Shown piece by piece: positions 51,813-60,599 of a DNA stretch of 64,000 nucleotides (its first letter is position 1; every line of letters begins with the position of its first letter). A program made the position numbers and the translations under genes. The notes under the pieces were generated by a model that was given only the letters and a program-made list of their open reading frames with translations, had not been told where the DNA came from and did no database searches. This DNA is from Aestuariispira insulae. Lineage in GTDB: Bacteria; Pseudomonadota; Alphaproteobacteria; UBA8366; Aestuariispiraceae. The stretch spans positions 124,001 through 188,000 of the forward strand of contig NZ_QRDW01000005.1 in assembly GCF_003385955.1 (NCBI RefSeq), read 5' to 3'.

Positions 51813-52775
51813 ATGGAAACCATCACATTGTCCAACCTGGAACAGGCACAATCGCTTGTCCATTCCTTCTTCCCCGGTACGCCGCAATATCGGTGGCCGC
51901 TTCTTTGTGAGCGTCTGGGCTGCGAGGTCTGGGTCAAGCATGAGAATTACACCCCGGTGGGCGCTTTCAAAATCCGGGGTGGTCTGGTTTTTGTGAAAGA
52001 CCGTGCGGATAAAAGCGAAGTCGGTGGCATGATCACCGCCACGCGCGGCAATCATGGCCAGAGTATCGCGACCGCTGCATCCCGCTATTCCATTCCGGTC
52101 ACGATCGTGGTGCCGAAAGGTAACAGTGTGGAAAAAAACAACGCCATGCGTGCCCAGGGCGGGAAGCTGATCGAATTTGGCGATGATTTCCAGGCAGCAT
52201 CCGATCATGCGGCGGAACTGGCGGGGCGGGAAGATCTTTATCGCCTGCCCAGTTTTCATCCGCTGCTGGTACGCGGGGTCGGCACCTATGCGTTGGAATT
52301 GTTGCAGGCGCAGCCGGACCTAGACACGATTTATGTGCCGATCGGTATGGGCAGCGGCGCATGCGGTGTGATCGCGGCGCGGGATGCGTTGGGCCTGAAA
52401 ACCAAAGTCGTTGGCGTGGTTTGCGATAAGGCACCGGCCTATGCACTCAGTTTTGAGGCGGGTAGGCCAGTTGAGACCGAAACAGCGGATACCTGGGCGG
52501 ACGGTGTTGCATGCCGATCCCCCATGGCGGAAGCGGTGGAGATGATCCATCGTGGCGCGGACCGGGTGGTGACTGTATCTGAAGCCCTGATCGCAGAGGC
52601 AATGCGCGTCTATTTCACAGATACCCACAATCTGGCGGAGGGGGCTGGCGCGATCGCGCTGGCGGCCCTGATGCAGGAAAAAGAGAAAATGAAGAATAAA
52701 AAATCAGCTGTCATTCTGACCGGTGGAAACTTGGATCTGGAACTCTACAGCCGCGTCCTGAAAGGAGAGATTTAA
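51813..52775 (+). CDS. Threonine/serine dehydratase-like PLP enzyme
   Basis: This 320-residue fold-type II PLP enzyme has its lysine in VGAFKIRGG (about residue 54), an RGNHGQSIATAASRY loop, a glycine-rich phosphate cup GMGSGACGV and a terminal TGGNLDLELYSRVL. It should deaminate a hydroxy amino acid (threonine, serine or hydroxyaspartate). The ATG at 51813 is chosen. An in-frame codon at 51783 is less likely. It is coupled to a decarboxylase gene two bases after it. Confidence 0.88.
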   Translation: METITLSNLEQAQSLVHSFFPGTPQYRWPLLCERLGCEVWVKHENYTPVGAFKIRGGLVFVKDRADKSEVGGMITATRGNHGQSIATAASRYSIPVTIVVPKGNSVEKNNAMRAQGGKLIEFGDDFQAASDHAAELAGREDLYRLPSFHPLLVRGVGTYALELLQAQPDLDTIYVPIGMGSGACGVIAARDALGLKTKVVGVVCDKAPAYALSFEAGRPVETETADTWADGVACRSPMAEAVEMIHRGADRVVTVSEALIAEAMRVYFTDTHNLAEGAGAIALAALMQEKEKMKNKKSAVILTGGNLDLELYSRVLKGEI

Positions 52776-52777
52776 CC

Positions 52778-54190
52778 ATGGACCAGATGAAAGCAGACCT
52801 ATCCAGCCTTCCGGCTGTTTTGGATGTTGCCAGAAAAATCGCCTGTGATTTCTGGGATGAATCGGCCAAGCGTCCAGCGGCGGTGGTCGAGGTGCCATCG
52901 ATCGATCATTGGCAGTTGCCGGAAACCGGCCCGGGCGCAGCTGCAGCCCTGGGGATCTTTCAAAAAGAGATCTTACCCCATTTCTCCGCTAGCGTTGGCC
53001 CGCGTTATTTCGGCTTCGTAACCGGGGGAGCAACCCCGGCGGCTTTGGCCGGTGATTGGCTGGCCGGTGCAACAGATCAAAATCCGGCATCGCCCGGTGA
53101 TTCCATTGCGGCCGACCTGATTGATCAGACGGTGAAAATGCTGCTCGACCTGTTCCATCTGCCGCAGGGGGCCTTTGACGGCGCTCTGACCACCGGTGCG
53201 ACGGCGGCCAACCTTCTGGGCTTGACGACGGGCCGGGAATGGTGTGCGCGCAATGCCGGTATTGATGTCACCAATGACGGTATGACCGCCCTTGGGCCGG
53301 TTCAGGTTTTTTCTGCTTGCCCTCATGCCAGTCTGATCAAGGTGCTGGGGATCTCAGGCATCGGCCGCAAAGCCTGGGTGCCGGTGGGGCGGATCGGTGA
53401 GAGTGAGGCGATGGATCCGGAAGCGCTTGATGCAGCGCTTGCAGCCTCCGACAATCCGAACAAGATCGTGGTTGCGTCCACCGGTACGGTCACGGCGAAC
53501 GACTTTGACGATCTGGAGGCGATTGCCGATATATGCGAGCGCAATGGGGCCTGGCTACATGTGGATGCGGCATTCGGTATTTTTGCGCGCTGCCTGCCGG
53601 AAATGGCGCCGCTGGCCAAGGGGCTGGAACGGGCGGACTCGATCACCGCTGACGGTCATAAATGGCTGAATGTGCCTTATGATTGCGGCATCTTCTTCAC
53701 CCGCCATATAGATCTGTTGGAACGGGCGCATGGCGTTCATGCTGCTTACTTGAAAACCGAAGCGGAAGCGCCGACCTATGGCCATCGTGGGGTGGAAAAC
53801 TCCCAGCGCCTGCGGGCGCTGCCAGCCTGGATGACGCTGCAGGCCTATGGCCGCAAAGGGGTTGAGGATATTGTTCGTGTGAACTGTTCCTTTGCGGCTC
53901 AGCTGGGCGCCTGGATTGATGCGTCTGATGCGTATGAACTGCTCTGTCCGGTGAAGCTGAATGTGGTTACCTTCCGTGGGCGGTTCACTGACAGTGATCA
54001 AGACAGGATGAACGCGGATTTGCTGCGCGCGATCAATCGTGATGGCAGGATTTTTTGCACGCCAGGCGTGATGAATGGCCAGTCGGGAATCCGGGCTGCG
54101 ATCAGCAATTGGCGCACCGATGACGCAGATCTGGATATTGCCATTACCGCCCTGAGCGAGGTGCACGCCACTTTGACAGCGGCATATTAG
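52778..54190 (+). CDS. Group II pyridoxal-dependent decarboxylase
   Basis: This 470-residue fold-type I PLP enzyme is of the aromatic/glutamate/diaminobutyrate decarboxylase group. The Schiff-base region ADGHKWLNVPYDCGIFF near residue 290 and GAWLHVDAAFG are visible. It begins two bases after the dehydratase-like gene and is followed by a PhzF gene. The amino-acid substrate cannot be deduced; aromatic amino acids, glutamate and cysteine sulfinate are all possible. The three genes probably form one pathway. Confidence 0.87.
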   Translation: MDQMKADLSSLPAVLDVARKIACDFWDESAKRPAAVVEVPSIDHWQLPETGPGAAAALGIFQKEILPHFSASVGPRYFGFVTGGATPAALAGDWLAGATDQNPASPGDSIAADLIDQTVKMLLDLFHLPQGAFDGALTTGATAANLLGLTTGREWCARNAGIDVTNDGMTALGPVQVFSACPHASLIKVLGISGIGRKAWVPVGRIGESEAMDPEALDAALAASDNPNKIVVASTGTVTANDFDDLEAIADICERNGAWLHVDAAFGIFARCLPEMAPLAKGLERADSITADGHKWLNVPYDCGIFFTRHIDLLERAHGVHAAYLKTEAEAPTYGHRGVENSQRLRALPAWMTLQAYGRKGVEDIVRVNCSFAAQLGAWIDASDAYELLCPVKLNVVTFRGRFTDSDQDRMNADLLRAINRDGRIFCTPGVMNGQSGIRAAISNWRTDDADLDIAITALSEVHATLTAAY

Positions 54191-54201
54191 GGGGAGGGCG
54201 C

Positions 54202-54993
54202 ATGGAACTTGATCTCTATCAGATTGATGCCTTCACCGCAGAACGCTTTTCTGGCAATCCGGCGGCGGTGGTGCCGTTGCAGAGATGGCTAAGCGATGAG
54301 GTGATGCTGAATATCGCCCGCGAAAACAACCTGTCAGAAACGGCGTTTTTTGTACCGGTTCTGACGGAAGAGGCGGATTTTGAAATCCGCTGGTTCACAC
54401 CGGTTATGGAAGTAGACCTTTGTGGGCATGCGACTCTGGCCGCTTCTGCAGTGATTTTTCGGCATCTGCGCTGGGATCAACCGGTCATTCGATTTGTCAC
54501 TCGGTTTGCCGGCGCACTGACCGTCAGCCGTGAGGGAGAACGGTTCGTCCTGGATTTTCCCTCCAGGCCGGCAAAGCCGGTGGAGATGCCCGCGGGGCTG
54601 ACGGCTGCTCTTGGGCGCGAACCAAAGACCTTTTTGCGAGCCATGAAAAATCTGGCGGTTTTTGATGGCGAGGAGGATATCCTGGCAATCGATCCTGATC
54701 TTGATTTCATTGCCGGGATGGAAGGCGATGGATTGGTCGTGACCGCGCCCGGGCGCGAGGTGGATTGTGTTTCCCGCTATTTCGCGCCCCACGCGGGGAT
54801 CGCGGAAGATCCGGTCACGGGCTCGGCCCATTGCACGGTCGTACCCTATTGGGTGGAACGGTTGGGGAAGAGGGAGTTGCATGCCAGGCAGGTATCAAAG
54901 CGTGGCGGTGATCTCTACTGTCACCAGGAAGGTGATCGAGTCCTGATGGCGGGGGATGCTTGTCTTTACATGAAAGGCAAAATCCTGATCTGA
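54202..54993 (+). CDS. PhzF-family isomerase
   Basis: This 263-residue enzyme has two similar halves with a diaminopimelate-epimerase fold. The catalytic Glu lies in NNLSETAFF (about residue 47), and DPVTGSAHC marks the C-terminal half. QIDAFTAERFSGNPAAVVPL is the typical start. PhzF itself isomerises a phenazine precursor, but most relatives are of unknown substrate. No other phenazine genes are present, so it more likely acts on a product of the PLP enzymes upstream. Confidence 0.88.
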   Translation: MELDLYQIDAFTAERFSGNPAAVVPLQRWLSDEVMLNIARENNLSETAFFVPVLTEEADFEIRWFTPVMEVDLCGHATLAASAVIFRHLRWDQPVIRFVTRFAGALTVSREGERFVLDFPSRPAKPVEMPAGLTAALGREPKTFLRAMKNLAVFDGEEDILAIDPDLDFIAGMEGDGLVVTAPGREVDCVSRYFAPHAGIAEDPVTGSAHCTVVPYWVERLGKRELHARQVSKRGGDLYCHQEGDRVLMAGDACLYMKGKILI

Positions 54994-55060
54994 CGGCGCA
55001 ATTTGTTGCGGGCGCAATTATCGGGTGGGATGTTTTTGATATCTGGTTTATCCAGAATAT

Positions 55061-55897
55061 ATGACTGATACATACACACTCATCGAACGCGCCCTCAATT
55101 ATCTTTCCGATCATTGGGAAGATCAGCCGGAATTGTCGGATCTCGCCGATCATGTGGGCATGAGCGAATATCATCTGCAGCGGCTGTTCACGAAATGGGC
55201 CGGCATCAGCCCCAAGAAATTCCTGAGTCAGTTGACCCTGGATCAGGCCAGGCGGCGGCTGGAAGCCAATGAGAGTATCCTGGATGCTGCCTTGGGCAGC
55301 GGCCTGTCCGGCCCGGGGCGGCTTCATGATCTTTTCGTAACTTACGAGGCGATGACACCCGGTGAATACAAACGCCAGGGCGATGGGCTGGTCATTCGCT
55401 ATGGTTGGCACGAAGGCCCGTTCGGCGCGACGTTGCTGATGGTGACGGATCGTGGCCTTTGTGGCTTGGCCTTTGAGGATGAGCGGGGCCGGGACGGTTG
55501 TTTTGCGGAAATGGCGGAACGCTGGCCGGGGGCTTTTTTACGTGAAGATATGGTGGAGACCAAACGCTATATGAATCGTATCTTTCATCCCGAGACCTTG
55601 AAGGATGATCCGCAGGAAGGGGCCTTGCGCCTCGTGCTGAAAGGCACGGAATATCAGGTCAAGGTTTGGGAGGCATTGATGACACTGCCCCAGGGCAGCA
55701 TGACCACTTATGGCAATCTGGCGAAAATGGTGAGCGGGGGCACGGGCGGTGCACGGGCGATTGGCAGCGCGGTTGGGGCCAATCCGATTGCCTGGCTGAT
55801 CCCCTGTCATAGGGTGATCCGCAGCAGCGGTGCGCTGGGCGGTTATCGCTGGGGACTGCCCCGTAAACTAGCCATGCTGGGTATGGAGGCTTCGTGA
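55061..55897 (+). CDS. Ada-like methylated-DNA-cysteine S-methyltransferase with AraC domain
   Basis: This 278-residue protein has an N-terminal AraC helix-turn-helix (about 10-105) joined to an O6-alkylguanine transferase domain (about 110-275). The acceptor cysteine lies in the classical PCHRVI motif near residue 248, with the SMTTYGNLAKMV helix ahead. The methyl-phosphotriester domain with four zinc cysteines found in full Ada is missing. It can repair O6-methylguanine, but the usual activation route of Ada should be absent. Confidence 0.9.
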   Translation: MTDTYTLIERALNYLSDHWEDQPELSDLADHVGMSEYHLQRLFTKWAGISPKKFLSQLTLDQARRRLEANESILDAALGSGLSGPGRLHDLFVTYEAMTPGEYKRQGDGLVIRYGWHEGPFGATLLMVTDRGLCGLAFEDERGRDGCFAEMAERWPGAFLREDMVETKRYMNRIFHPETLKDDPQEGALRLVLKGTEYQVKVWEALMTLPQGSMTTYGNLAKMVSGGTGGARAIGSAVGANPIAWLIPCHRVIRSSGALGGYRWGLPRKLAMLGMEAS

Positions 55898-57094: not shown

Positions 57095-57886
57095 TTACTT
57101 GATGCCGCCCCAGGCAATGAAATGCGGATTCAGGAAATCCTTACGCTTGGCGTAGGTGAAAGGCGTTTTCCCATCTTCCAAGGTAATGCGACCGCCCGCG
57201 GCTTGCAGTACGGCATGTCCTGCTGCAGTGTCCCATTCGCAGGTCGGGCCAAAGCGTGGGTAGAGATCCGCTTCACCACAGGCAACCAGGCAGAATTTGA
57301 GCGAACTTCCGGCGTTGCGAACCTCTTTGAGGGGGCGGCCGGCCAGGAATTTTTCCAGCAAGGCTGGGTCGCCGTGGCGCCGGCTGGCGGCCAGGGTAAT
57401 GCCTTCCGGCTGTTCGGATCGAACGGAAATCTCCTCGGGCGGATTCTGGCCGGTTCTCTTCCATGCCTTTTCGTCAACGATCCCCCAATAAAGTGTGTCG
57501 AGTGCGGGGGCGAGCACAGCCCCCAAGACCGGTTGGCGATTATGTAGCAGGGCGATATTCACCGTGAACTCGTCATTGCGGTTGAGAAACTCTTTGGTGC
57601 CGTCAACCGGGTCAACCAGCCAAAAGTATCCATCGGAGACTTCGGGAATTCTGCCTTCCGCGGCGGCTTCTTCTGCGACCACTGGAACATTGGGCAGCAA
57701 GGCTTCCAAAGCCGGTGTTATGATAGCCTCTGCGGCAAGGTCAGCTTCCGTGACAGGAGAAGAGTCACTTTTGGTCCGGGCTTCAAAATCCGTGCGATAG
57801 ATCTCCATGACTGTCTCGCCAGCCTCCTCGATGATCTCAAGGATGCGGTTCATGATCATATGGATGTTGGGCTGGCTGGCAGTCAT
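57095..57886 (-). CDS. cysQ: 3'(2'),5'-bisphosphate nucleotidase CysQ
   Basis: This 263-residue phosphatase of the inositol-phosphatase superfamily removes phosphate from PAP and related adenosine phosphates left over from sulfate assimilation. The metal motifs VAEEAAAEGRIPEV (Glu) and LVDPVDGTKEFLNRNDEFTV (about 93-112) are present; CEWDTAAGHAVLQAAGG ends the site. The start at 57886 is favoured. In-frame ATGs at 57859 and 57853 are alternatives. Confidence 0.92.
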   Translation of the reverse strand: MTASQPNIHMIMNRILEIIEEAGETVMEIYRTDFEARTKSDSSPVTEADLAAEAIITPALEALLPNVPVVAEEAAAEGRIPEVSDGYFWLVDPVDGTKEFLNRNDEFTVNIALLHNRQPVLGAVLAPALDTLYWGIVDEKAWKRTGQNPPEEISVRSEQPEGITLAASRRHGDPALLEKFLAGRPLKEVRNAGSSLKFCLVACGEADLYPRFGPTCEWDTAAGHAVLQAAGGRITLEDGKTPFTYAKRKDFLNPHFIAWGGIK

Positions 57887-57964: not shown

Positions 57965-59401
57965 TCACTCATGCAGGTCTGTTTGCGCCGGGAACCTCTG
58001 AGGGGCGGTTTTTTCCACCCGATACTGCCAAGCCTGGAAACTGTCTGACCAATGGTCCTCGGCCAGGCCGGCCTTGATTTTAAGCCGCGTGAGAAATTCG
58101 GCAGGTTCAGGCAGGCTCTCCCAAACCTGGGGCAGAAAAACCGATCGCCGTCCGAAATCCTGTATCATCAGGCCGGTTTCCCCGGGAATAAGCTGCGAGA
58201 GCAGATCTTCTTCATTTTTGAATTTCATGGCTTTCATGGGGGATAGGACGGAAACCGCAAAGGAGAGCCTGGTCAGTTCCGGTGCTTCCAGTGGCGGAAA
58301 GCGATGGTCATTGAAGGCTGCGGCATAGGCATTTTCCACGATGTCGATGATCAGGGGGCGATGGGGTGTCACACTGCCAATGCAGCCGCGTAATCGACCG
58401 TCCGTTTCCAATGTCACAAAACTTGCAGCAGTCTGCTGCAGGTCAGCGTGAAAGCTAGATACATCCACCTTGGGAGGTTTGCCGTTTTTCAGGCCGGACA
58501 GGATCGACCGGATCACGCTTTTTGAAATTTCATGCGTATGAACGTCAACAAGGCTCGCAGGATTGTTTGTTATTTGTGGTTCAAACAGGGACCAACTGCC
58601 ATAGCCGACAACCCGGTCTTTTGTTCCGGCGGTATCCCCTGAATTGCAAAGTCCTGTCCGGGCAATGCTCATGCCGCGCCGTTTGGCACAACTCAGCATG
58701 CCGGAAACGGGGATCCTGCCACAGGCCTGATCGCGGCCTATAGACTGCCAGTTCAGCTTTTCGATGGCTTCGGCCGTCTGTCTGTCCAGGGCTTGGGCAT
58801 CCTCATAGCTCAGGAAATGGCTGAGATCGGTGCTGATCACGATCAGGGTTTCCGGCCCGCCCCATAATGTATCCAGCAGCTGGGCAACAGCCTCATTATC
58901 CGCAGCACCGACCGCCAGGGGAACCAGGCTGAAATTCGAAAGTGCCTTTTGCAGGAAGGGAAGGTGCACCTCCAGGCTATGCTCCTCTTCATGAGCCAGG
59001 TCATTCACACTGACTTGAGACAGCTCCAGAGCCTGGTTCCTGGCATCCTGGTCGATCGGCACTGGGCCAAGCGGGGTCTGCCAAACATCCGCCGAGGTTA
59101 TGGCAAGCCCTGTGATCGGCACCCGGTGGCAGGGTCCCAGAAGGACGACACGGCGGATCCGTTCTGATCCTTCCAGCAGGGCCTGATAGGCCCTGCCCGC
59201 ACAGGCACCCGAGTAGATATAACCGGCATGGGGCACGATCAGGGCCTTGGGTGGGCCGGGTGGGGGGGCTGGTTCCCGCATGGTCGGATCGGACGCAAGG
59301 AATTGATCCAGCTGTGCGCTCAATTTCTCCGGCGTTGCCGGATAAAAATGACCGGCAAGCGCGGCAGGTCTGATGGAAGACATGGTTTCAACGCTTTTCA
59401 T
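57965..59401 (-). CDS. AmmeMemoRadiSam system protein B/A fusion (MEMO plus AMMECR1)
   Basis: This protein is 478 residues from the ATG at 59401 (AGGGG eight bases upstream; the frame is open to 59431). The MEMO-like domain (about 10-275) keeps the metal-site residues His58, His92, His195 and Cys227 (VPHAG, GPCHRV, DLSHFLSY, ACGRI). An AMMECR1 domain (about 290-470) carries the signature LRGCIG. In most genomes these are separate proteins linked to one radical SAM enzyme; here they are fused. The reaction is not known. It is divergent from the radical SAM gene, with 67 bases between them. Confidence 0.93.
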   Translation of the reverse strand: MKSVETMSSIRPAALAGHFYPATPEKLSAQLDQFLASDPTMREPAPPPGPPKALIVPHAGYIYSGACAGRAYQALLEGSERIRRVVLLGPCHRVPITGLAITSADVWQTPLGPVPIDQDARNQALELSQVSVNDLAHEEEHSLEVHLPFLQKALSNFSLVPLAVGAADNEAVAQLLDTLWGGPETLIVISTDLSHFLSYEDAQALDRQTAEAIEKLNWQSIGRDQACGRIPVSGMLSCAKRRGMSIARTGLCNSGDTAGTKDRVVGYGSWSLFEPQITNNPASLVDVHTHEISKSVIRSILSGLKNGKPPKVDVSSFHADLQQTAASFVTLETDGRLRGCIGSVTPHRPLIIDIVENAYAAAFNDHRFPPLEAPELTRLSFAVSVLSPMKAMKFKNEEDLLSQLIPGETGLMIQDFGRRSVFLPQVWESLPEPAEFLTRLKIKAGLAEDHWSDSFQAWQYRVEKTAPQRFPAQTDLHE

Positions 59402-59468
59402 TGCTCTTACCCCTATCTTAGCGTGAAGCATGCTATATTAGTATCTCGAATTACAGCGGGCATGGCAG

Positions 59469-60599
59469 ATGGATGATGTGATTGAAGGCATACCCGGGCG
59501 CTATTGGCAGACATTGCCGGATGGGCGCATCCAGTGCGATCTTTGCCCGCGTGAATGCAAATTGCAGGAAGGCCAGCGCGGTCTTTGCTTTGTGCGCGCC
59601 AGGAAAGGGGAGGGGCTTGTCCTGACCACCTATGGCCGGTCCAGCGGTTTTTGCATCGATCCGATAGAGAAAAAACCGCTCAACCATTTCCTGCCGGGAA
59701 CATCGGTGCTCAGCTTTGGGACGGCAGGGTGCAATCTCACCTGCAAATTCTGCCAGAACCATGATATTTCAAAGGCGCGCCAGATGGATGCCTTGATGGA
59801 TCATGCGCCGCCGGATGTGATTGCGGAGGCCGCTGTGAAAGGCGGATGTCGGTCGGTCGCCTATACCTATAATGATCCTGTGATCTTTTTGGAATATGCG
59901 GTGGATGTTGCCCAGGCCTGTCACGAACGGGGGATCCGCAACGTTGCGGTCACGGCAGGTTACCTGAAACAGGCGGCGCGTGAAGAGTTTTTTACGCATA
60001 TGGATGCAGCCAATGTTGACCTCAAAGCCTTCACGGATTCCTTTTATCATTCGTTATGCTCGGCTCACCTGGAACCGGTTCTGGAAACCTGCCTCTATCT
60101 GAAATATGAGACAAATGTCTGGTTCGAACTGACCGTGCTGCTGATTCCAGGCGAGAATGATGGTGAGGCTGAGCTGGAGCGGCTGACCCAATGGGTGGTG
60201 GAGCATTTGGGCGGGGATGTTCCGGTTCATTTTACGGCCTTCCATCCGGATTTCCGGATGCTGGACAAGCCCCGCACGCCGCCGGAAACCTTGTTCCGGG
60301 CCTATCGGATCGCCCGGAAGAACGGGGTCCGTTTTCCCTATACCGGCAATATTCATCATCCGCAGACCGGATCCAGCTATTGCCCAGGATGCGGGACTTG
60401 CGTGATGGAACGTGATTGGCACGAACTTTCCCATTGGGGGCTGACCCAAGGTGGGTGCTGTTCGCAATGCGGTATGGATATACCGGGGGTGTTTGAAGAG
60501 AGGCCCGGGACCTGGGGGCGTCGGCGCCAGCCTCTGCGGTTAGGCCCCTTGGCTGACCGGATGCACCCGGATCCGGTCCAGGGGCCGGTTTCTTCATGA
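59469..60599 (+). CDS. amrS: AmmeMemoRadiSam system radical SAM enzyme
   Basis: This 376-residue enzyme binds a 4Fe-4S cluster through Cys88, Cys92 and Cys95 in CNLTCKFCQN. An N-terminal CDLCPRECKL-type cluster (Cys23, 26, 30, 40) and a Cys-rich tail (YCPGCGTC and CCSQCG) suggest further metal sites. It is related to pyruvate-formate-lyase activating enzymes, but no glycyl-radical enzyme is nearby. The divergent partner is the MEMO-AMMECR1 fusion. The substrate is unknown. Confidence 0.93.
   Translation: MDDVIEGIPGRYWQTLPDGRIQCDLCPRECKLQEGQRGLCFVRARKGEGLVLTTYGRSSGFCIDPIEKKPLNHFLPGTSVLSFGTAGCNLTCKFCQNHDISKARQMDALMDHAPPDVIAEAAVKGGCRSVAYTYNDPVIFLEYAVDVAQACHERGIRNVAVTAGYLKQAAREEFFTHMDAANVDLKAFTDSFYHSLCSAHLEPVLETCLYLKYETNVWFELTVLLIPGENDGEAELERLTQWVVEHLGGDVPVHFTAFHPDFRMLDKPRTPPETLFRAYRIARKNGVRFPYTGNIHHPQTGSSYCPGCGTCVMERDWHELSHWGLTQGGCCSQCGMDIPGVFEERPGTWGRRRQPLRLGPLADRMHPDPVQGPVSS

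Follow-up and report, generated by a model that had tools for sequence, protein, structure and literature searches.

A MEMO-AMMECR1 fusion protein encoded beside a divergent radical SAM gene in Aestuariispira insulae is an ordinary member of the AmmeMemoRadiSam system

Here, we describe an AmmeMemoRadiSam (amrA/amrB/amrS) system in a stretch of 64,000 nucleotides from the alphaproteobacterium Aestuariispira insulae (contig NZ_QRDW01000005.1 of assembly GCF_003385955.1, positions 124,001 to 188,000; hereafter the window). In this locus, AmrB, a protein of the MEMO family (B), and the AMMECR1 family protein (A), whose gene name we take to be amrA, form a single two-domain protein, AmrBA, and the fused gene is read divergently from the gene of the radical S-adenosylmethionine (SAM) enzyme AmrS (R); this assignment is virtually certain. 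We suggest that AmrBA would be one enzyme with two sites, the His-His-Cys metal site of MEMO and the LRGC cysteine site of AMMECR1, that both sites would act on one substrate, and that AmrS would be a coupled partner; we give this overall explanation a probability of about 0.5. Its parts differ in strength. That A and B constitute one functional unit is highly probable, that R is coupled to them in the same pathway is likely, and that R acts upstream of them falls slightly short of even odds; by 5'-deoxyadenosyl-radical chemistry, AmrS might generate a product that A and B process later, or it might modify the same substrate first. The substrate class, a small conserved metabolite or a nucleobase-type compound, is a weakly held guess, and its nucleobase-type variant is rather doubtful. 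The window copy itself is an ordinary example of a widespread, already named and still uncharacterised bacterial enzyme set, two parts of which are kin to human MEMO1 and AMMECR1.

The family names given to the three parts in a sequence-only reading of this DNA are borne out by NCBIfam and Pfam, the cut-offs of which are passed by all three. The fused protein matches TIGR04336 (B, MEMO) with 254 bits against a cut-off of 26 and TIGR04335 (A, AMMECR1) with 184 bits against 99, at residues 21-280 and 306-474 of its long form, and AmrS matches TIGR04337 with 617 bits against 220. In Pfam, PF01875 (Memo, 175 bits), PF01871 (AMMECR1, 145 bits) and PF04055 (Radical_SAM, 60 bits) are all above cut-off. 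The window is the same in kind as the AmmeMemoRadiSam system defined by TIGR04335, TIGR04336 and TIGR04337, all three models being passed by adjacent genes of one locus. The fused gene can be read from either of two ATG codons (Table 1), of which the internal one at 59401 is the likelier start owing to the AGGGG that precedes it. From this start, 67 bases separate the gene from the radical SAM ATG at 59469, which confirms the divergent spacing originally read from the open reading frames (ORFs).

The fusion of MEMO and AMMECR1 is both genuine and ordinary. We compared a class sample of 190 genomes and a phylum sample of 398 genomes. In the class sample, 26 of the 34 A-B pairs lie in one frame and eight do not, one of the eight (G169) having stops inside A. 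The phylum sample holds 60 same-frame pairs in 47 genomes (in three of the 60, the A match is just under the cut-off) and 53 adjacent separate pairs in 53 genomes; three genomes have both kinds, and A and B are neither fused nor adjacent in 6 of the 103 genomes that have both. These same-frame pairs, together with a triple fusion in two genomes (see below), lead us to reject a frameshift, which the sequence-only reading had named as a possible source of the apparent fusion, and an assembly artefact. The fusion is also not unusual: fused pairs are common in relatives, and the RefSeq amrB genes on plasmids of Segatella hominis (491 residues, matching over 93% of the window's fused protein) and Ideonella dechloratans (464 residues, 97%) are of fused length, each with amrS adjacent. 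In a tree of 76 MEMO domains built by a quick method, the window (fused) is next to a relative from its own family in which A and B are split, and fused and split states change at least 12 times, a parsimony minimum on an uncertain tree in which 15 of 73 inner branches are starred and several are long; the starred branches force three of the changes. That the fusion was repeatedly gained or lost favours a function common to A and B. In the phylum sample, 16 genomes have two or more A-B pairs, with the second pair scoring lower in several, and four genomes of Nitrospirae and Chloroflexi (G203, G209, G210 and G221) have, besides the usual MEMO match, a second one in a longer frame of 411-471 residues.

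Distribution across genomes and a natural single-chain protein provide the evidence for linkage. First, in the class sample, A is over its cut-off in 33 of 190 genomes and B in the identical 33; in the phylum sample, where the counts cover A and B only, A is found in 104 genomes, B in 105 and both in 103. Together with the changes in fusion state, these figures support the proposal, made from the sequence, that MEMO and AMMECR1 act as one unit. Second, R, searched at E 1e-40 in the class sample, is present in 30 genomes, 28 of which are among the 33 with A and B (p about 4e-26, hypergeometric test, relatedness ignored), so the expected co-occurrence of the families is far beyond chance. Third, in one genome (G016), a single ORF of 875 residues holds R, then MEMO, then AMMECR1, and another genome of the same genus (G222) has the same order in an open frame of 881 residues, 84% identical over 865 residues. 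A third genome of that family has no R match at E 1e-40, and the single-chain form is absent from all 80 named loci, which are the best 80 of at least 589 matches confirmed for a query headed by the triple fusion and are biased to close relatives. We met no description of the single-chain form in the literature searched, which did not extend to Burroughs 2019. The natural triple fusion in two genomes thus supports the link of R to A/B. In the sequence-only reading, the radical SAM protein was the generator or client of the other two; the link is likely, and the triple fusion favours it, whereas the partnership is not obligatory, since genomes with A and B only and genomes with R only exist. 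Tentatively, AmrS, MEMO and AMMECR1 could even be one multi-site enzyme, in which a reactive AmrS product would be handed directly to the MEMO metal site and completed at the AMMECR1 cysteine, the enzyme being split into two or three chains in most of the bacteria sampled and, in the lineage of G016 and G222, a single synthase of about 875 residues; we consider this possible, with odds well below even.

The residues of both AmrBA sites are in place. In a 73-row profile (alignment A2, 73 of the 80 available rows; alignment A3 comprises 46 of 81), His58, His92, His195 and Cys227 (478-residue numbering) align with His49, His81, His192 and Cys244 of human MEMO1, as numbered in PMC11081632, and the positions of PHAGY, GPxH, DxxH and CGR coincide in the two proteins. 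The metal site had been read as one of four residues. All four are present; however, in the MEMO1 crystal, according to the available text of PMC11081632, iron is held by His49, His81 and Cys244, and His192 and Asp189 do not bind. Because MEMO1 His192 is not a ligand, the site has, by homology, three ligands rather than four, and His195 is not among them. The His-His-Cys residues of a MEMO1-type metal site are thus present by alignment, and the site would bind iron, as that of MEMO1 does. Among aligned MEMO domains of more than 150 bits, the score above which residues were counted throughout, His58, His92 and Cys227 are each kept in 92 of 93, every exception being a gap, and His195 is also kept in 92 of 93, the exception being a Ser (L051). 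The LRGCIG motif reported for the AMMECR1 domain was found as described, with Cys340 as its cysteine; of the 77 AMMECR1 domains compared, 76 retain this Cys and all retain both motif glycines.

Fold comparison agrees with these assignments. The AlphaFold2 model of the fused protein has a mean predicted local distance difference test score (pLDDT) of 94.8 and a predicted template modelling score (pTM) of 0.81. Its MEMO domain matches human MEMO1 (7kq8) with Z 34.2 and a root-mean-square deviation (rmsd) of 1.9 over 257 aligned residues at 32% identity, and its AMMECR1 domain matches PH0010 (1vaj) with Z 22.0 and rmsd 2.1 over 189 aligned residues. Human MEMO1 (7kq8, 3bcz) has the fold and the three metal ligands in common with the window's MEMO domain, which differs in being joined to AMMECR1 and in lying beside a radical SAM gene. 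Similarly, PH0010, MM0484 (1zq7) and ST0229 (1wsc) have the fold of the window's AMMECR1 domain (Z 18.5-22.0), whereas their chains of 203-225 residues consist of AMMECR1 alone and are 26-29% identical to it.

AmrS carries the radical SAM motif CX3CX2C as Cys88/92/95 and, as noticed in the sequence-only reading, extra cysteine clusters at both ends (Cys23, 26, 30 and 40 in the N-terminal part; Cys305, 308, 331 and 334 in the C-terminal part). These eight cysteines and the CX3CX2C set are invariant in 115 of 115 aligned R domains. In the AlphaFold2 model (pLDDT 85.7, pTM 0.87), residues 55-292 have their best fold match in the pyruvate formate-lyase (PFL)-activating enzyme 3cb8 (Z 22.2, rmsd 2.8, 224 aligned residues); this fold and the CX3CX2C motif are features expected of a PflA-type glycyl-radical-enzyme activase. 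AmrS differs from 3cb8 by its terminal cysteine clusters, by a score far below the activase cut-off and by a genome in which no PF01228 was found (NrdD-type enzymes were not searched for).

Several observations weigh against our explanation. First, the parts occur apart. Five of the 33 class genomes with A and B have no R match at E 1e-40 (G060, G082, G086, G145 and G184), and all five keep the three MEMO metal ligands. Four of them also keep the LRGC Cys and His195, and because R-less genomes keep these key residues, A/B can probably work without R. Three of these four have a change at another conserved MEMO position (R-less loci show, in alignment numbering, Glu134 replaced by Asp in L077 and Asp250 by Thr or Asn in L049 and L060). 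In the fifth, G086 (L051), the LRGC Cys is lost, and MEMO has lost His195, Asp206 and His141 (alignment positions 189, 200 and 135) with its three ligands kept; the only AMMECR1 domain without the LRGC Cys thus belongs to an R-less genome, a single case of joint change that speaks for our explanation. Conversely, R is present with no match to PF01871 or PF01875 in G128, Halomonas beimenensis (a record titled complete genome), H. ramblicola and one Gemmatimonadales assembly. R and MEMO occur with no AMMECR1 match in six genomes, including Microvirga vignae; several members of these two groups are assemblies of unknown completeness. In G100, R occurs without MEMO and with a 55-bit AMMECR1 match that is above the Pfam cut-off, under that of TIGR04335, and shows no LRGC motif. 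Some absences of A/B near R fall at contig ends or in incomplete assemblies, and in 10 of 20 such genomes A is over its cut-off elsewhere. The chief argument against a machine that strictly needs all three proteins comes from these R-only and A/B-only genomes. Second, the neighbouring genes vary between loci, with CysQ and a molybdenum hydroxylase subunit in Alphaproteobacteria and phosphoribosyltransferase and archease in a few other loci, and none is widespread enough to point to the substrate. Third, the weak resemblance of the MEMO fold to nucleoside phosphorylases (1vmk, Z 6.5, rmsd 3.9, 141 aligned residues), which we count in favour, shows fold ancestry, not substrate. Fourth, the accessible parts of two papers point to peptides: a related radical SAM domain is placed in peptide-processing systems (PMC7159879), and Memo-like proteins are fused to recognition elements of ribosomally synthesised and post-translationally modified peptides (RiPPs; PMC12710340). 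Because these sources place related domains in peptide systems, we lowered our already low odds for a nucleobase-type substrate a little further.

Among the alternatives, a base or RNA modification system is unlikely. The direction comes from a link to nucleobase and isoprenoid modification that Burroughs and others reportedly proposed in 2019. We compared 121 loci, made up of 41 at class level (the window and 40 chosen regions) and the 80 named loci. An archease gene lies beside the set in L090, L103 and L107, phosphoribosyltransferase genes flank it on both sides in L090 and L107, an RtcB-family gene lies near amrB-amrS in Segatella, and the fold kinship of MEMO with nucleoside phosphorylases fits the same direction. 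However, archease and phosphoribosyltransferase are each found in only 3 of the 121 loci, and neither is in the window.

The genes could also be mere neighbours under one bidirectional promoter, in which case R would serve another pathway and the triple fusion would be an accident. That R and A/B each occur apart agrees with this idea, as does the CysQ block beside A/B, which looks like inherited synteny within Alphaproteobacteria. Against it stand the co-occurrence in 28 of 33 genomes, the retention of the triple fusion at 84% identity in two species, and the arrangement itself. B and R are linked in 88 of the 121 loci, 80 times divergently, four times convergently, three times codirectionally and once by fusion, so the divergent pair singled out in the sequence-only reading is recurrent. 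The divergent pair is found in Alpha- and Gammaproteobacteria and in a Planctomycetaceae genome, there 1.5 kb apart (in 6 of the 80 divergent loci, more than 1 kb lies between the domains), and amrB and amrS are adjacent and codirectional in the plasmid records of Segatella and Ideonella. We therefore consider mere neighbourhood distinctly unlikely.

Alternatively, the substrate might be a peptide or protein encoded elsewhere that AmrS modifies or processes together with A/B. The two papers that place related domains in peptide systems speak for this, and the PFL-activating enzyme, the nearest fold kin of R, has been solved with a peptide substrate. On the other side, no NCBIfam or Pfam match among the window's proteins is named for a peptide system. 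Likewise, no conserved small ORF was found beside the genes: four flanking ORFs had no match in 14 related loci (tblastn, E 0.1), a weak test that is insensitive for short queries. We rate a peptide or protein substrate as a poor prospect.

In a further scenario, AmrS would be a glycyl-radical activase, AMMECR1, by its RGCIG motif, the minimal radical protein, of glycyl or thiyl type, that AmrS switches on, and MEMO a factor that protects or processes AMMECR1. Consistent with this, outside its own family AmrS has its best hidden Markov model (HMM) neighbours among the glycyl-radical activases (TIGR02493, E 4.8e-15), its best fold match is an activase, the motif glycines are invariant and the Cys nearly so, and the sole Cys-less A belongs to an R-less genome. 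However, the other four R-less genomes keep LRGC, R persists in genomes in which no AMMECR1 was found, and AmrS scores below the cut-off of every activase family matched (55.6 bits for TIGR02493, cut-off 231.75). To our knowledge, eukaryotes keep AMMECR1 without AmrS, which also counts against such a switch. We regard this scenario as highly unlikely. Nor is AmrS likely to be a conventional glycyl-radical-enzyme activase, a role that we rejected on separate grounds: the glycyl-radical domain PF01228 was not found in the window's genome, which is 99.4% complete, or in 29 of the 30 class genomes with R, the sole holder being the R-only genome G128, in searches that did not include NrdD-type enzymes. 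As far as PF01228 is concerned, the absence of an adjacent glycyl-radical enzyme, remarked on from the sequence, thus extends to the whole genome.

Finally, it is barely credible that MEMO works in a catabolic pathway as a true extradiol-type dioxygenase, with neighbours that supply the aromatic ring. Its fold does resemble those of aminophenol and gallate dioxygenases (Z 15.2-16.6), but the two-His-one-carboxylate site of LigB/DesB/DODA-type enzymes is replaced at its third position by Cys227 (Cys244 in MEMO1, by the mapping in PMC11081632), no aromatic catabolic gene is found among the neighbours scanned against family libraries, and MEMO1, in the available text of the same source, shows no dioxygenase activity with standard substrates.

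Systems of Memo, Ammecr1 and a radical SAM domain are credited to Burroughs et al. 2019 in the accessible parts of PMC7159879 and of a review (PMC7694686), and, per the former, comprise the same three families as the window. MEMO1 is conserved from bacteria to humans, and its primary molecular function was called unknown in 2024 (PMC11081632); PMC6393860 lists AMMECR1 among the top-priority uncharacterised archaeal proteins. Among the papers listed in the literature searched, most subscription journals lying outside it, none treats what the AmmeMemoRadiSam system as a whole does. The bacterial set ties the MEMO1 and AMMECR1 families to a radical SAM enzyme. The pairwise fusions in relatives and the triple chain in two species provide a handle on the function of the set, and the single-chain protein, together with genomes that have only R or only A/B, is material for asking about a shared reaction and the order of its steps. 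Two features merit further attention: the single-chain form and the natural separation of the parts.

Table 1. Features of the window's AmmeMemoRadiSam locus and of related loci
Feature	Coordinates	Strand	Basis
Fused AmrB-AmrA (MEMO-AMMECR1) gene	57965..59401	-	478 aa from ATG 59401; TIGR04336, TIGR04335, PF01875, PF01871
Alternative long form of fused gene	57965-59431	-	488 aa from ATG 59431; single uninterrupted ORF
MEMO (AmrB) domain	58586..59383	-	domain bounds, MEMO1 alignment, fold match
MEMO residue codons	His58 59228-59230; His92 59126-59128; His195 58817-58819; Cys227 58721-58723	-	MEMO1 alignment
AMMECR1 (AmrA) domain with LRGCIG	58013..58552	-	domain bounds, PH0010 fold match
LRGCIG Cys340 codon	58382-58384	-	AMMECR1 domain motif
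Intergenic divergent region, amrBA/amrS	59402..59468	.	67 bases; ORF coordinates
AmrS radical SAM enzyme	59469..60599	+	376 aa; TIGR04337
CysQ-type 3'(2'),5'-bisphosphate nucleotidase	57095..57886	-	78 bases downstream of amrBA; TIGR01331 272 bits, cut-off 228.8
Molybdopterin-binding large subunit (related loci)	L063:6822-9212, L066:10713-13157, L081:7192-9615, L082:6542-8884, L096:4963-8355		two by Pfam, rest BLAST similarity

The most frequent neighbour of the set encodes CysQ, which is present in 20 of the 121 loci, including the window, one of the 20 being a weak match 8 kb away. These loci mostly have it downstream of A and, where the organism is known, nearly all belong to Alphaproteobacteria; judged by its position and sequence, the CysQ-type nucleotidase is a candidate rather than an established member of the system. 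In the window, CysQ directly follows AMMECR1. In five relatives (Table 1), the large subunit of a molybdenum hydroxylase of the xanthine dehydrogenase/CoxL type stands directly after AMMECR1 and is followed by CysQ; the usual partner subunits are not alongside it. The 10 proteins scanned beside R-only loci have no family in common.

A shared regulator of the divergent genes is not supported. FNR-like and Fur-like patterns show no excess over shuffled sequences in the 71 of 80 divergent stretches that are shorter than 600 bases, and the most frequent 8-mers in the divergent stretches are, by our reading, those of a coding motif, RYWH.

On the far side of AmrS, galU lies downstream in the window. 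On the side of the fused gene, the nearest methyltransferase-domain gene by Pfam, an AraC/methylguanine-methyltransferase fusion at 55061-55897, sits two genes beyond it, in keeping with the initial remark that no methyltransferase is adjacent. A row of genes at 51816-55894, near the locus, encodes a PALP-family enzyme, a pyridoxal phosphate (PLP) decarboxylase, a PhzF-like protein and this AraC/methylguanine-methyltransferase fusion (Pfam).

In two R-less genomes, the fused gene is followed by a gene for a protein of about 570 residues with no Pfam match (L049:5622-7355 and L060:6938-8656, both on the minus strand), the start of which possibly overlaps the fused gene by 11 bases. In two Thiocapsa genomes, a gene for a Lon-like AAA protease closely follows the AMMECR1 gene (L113:5911-8985 and L118:5900-8980, both on the minus strand). 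In L092, a lone radical SAM gene is read divergently from a large gene for a pyruvate:ferredoxin oxidoreductase, and a related frame occupies the same place in L101.

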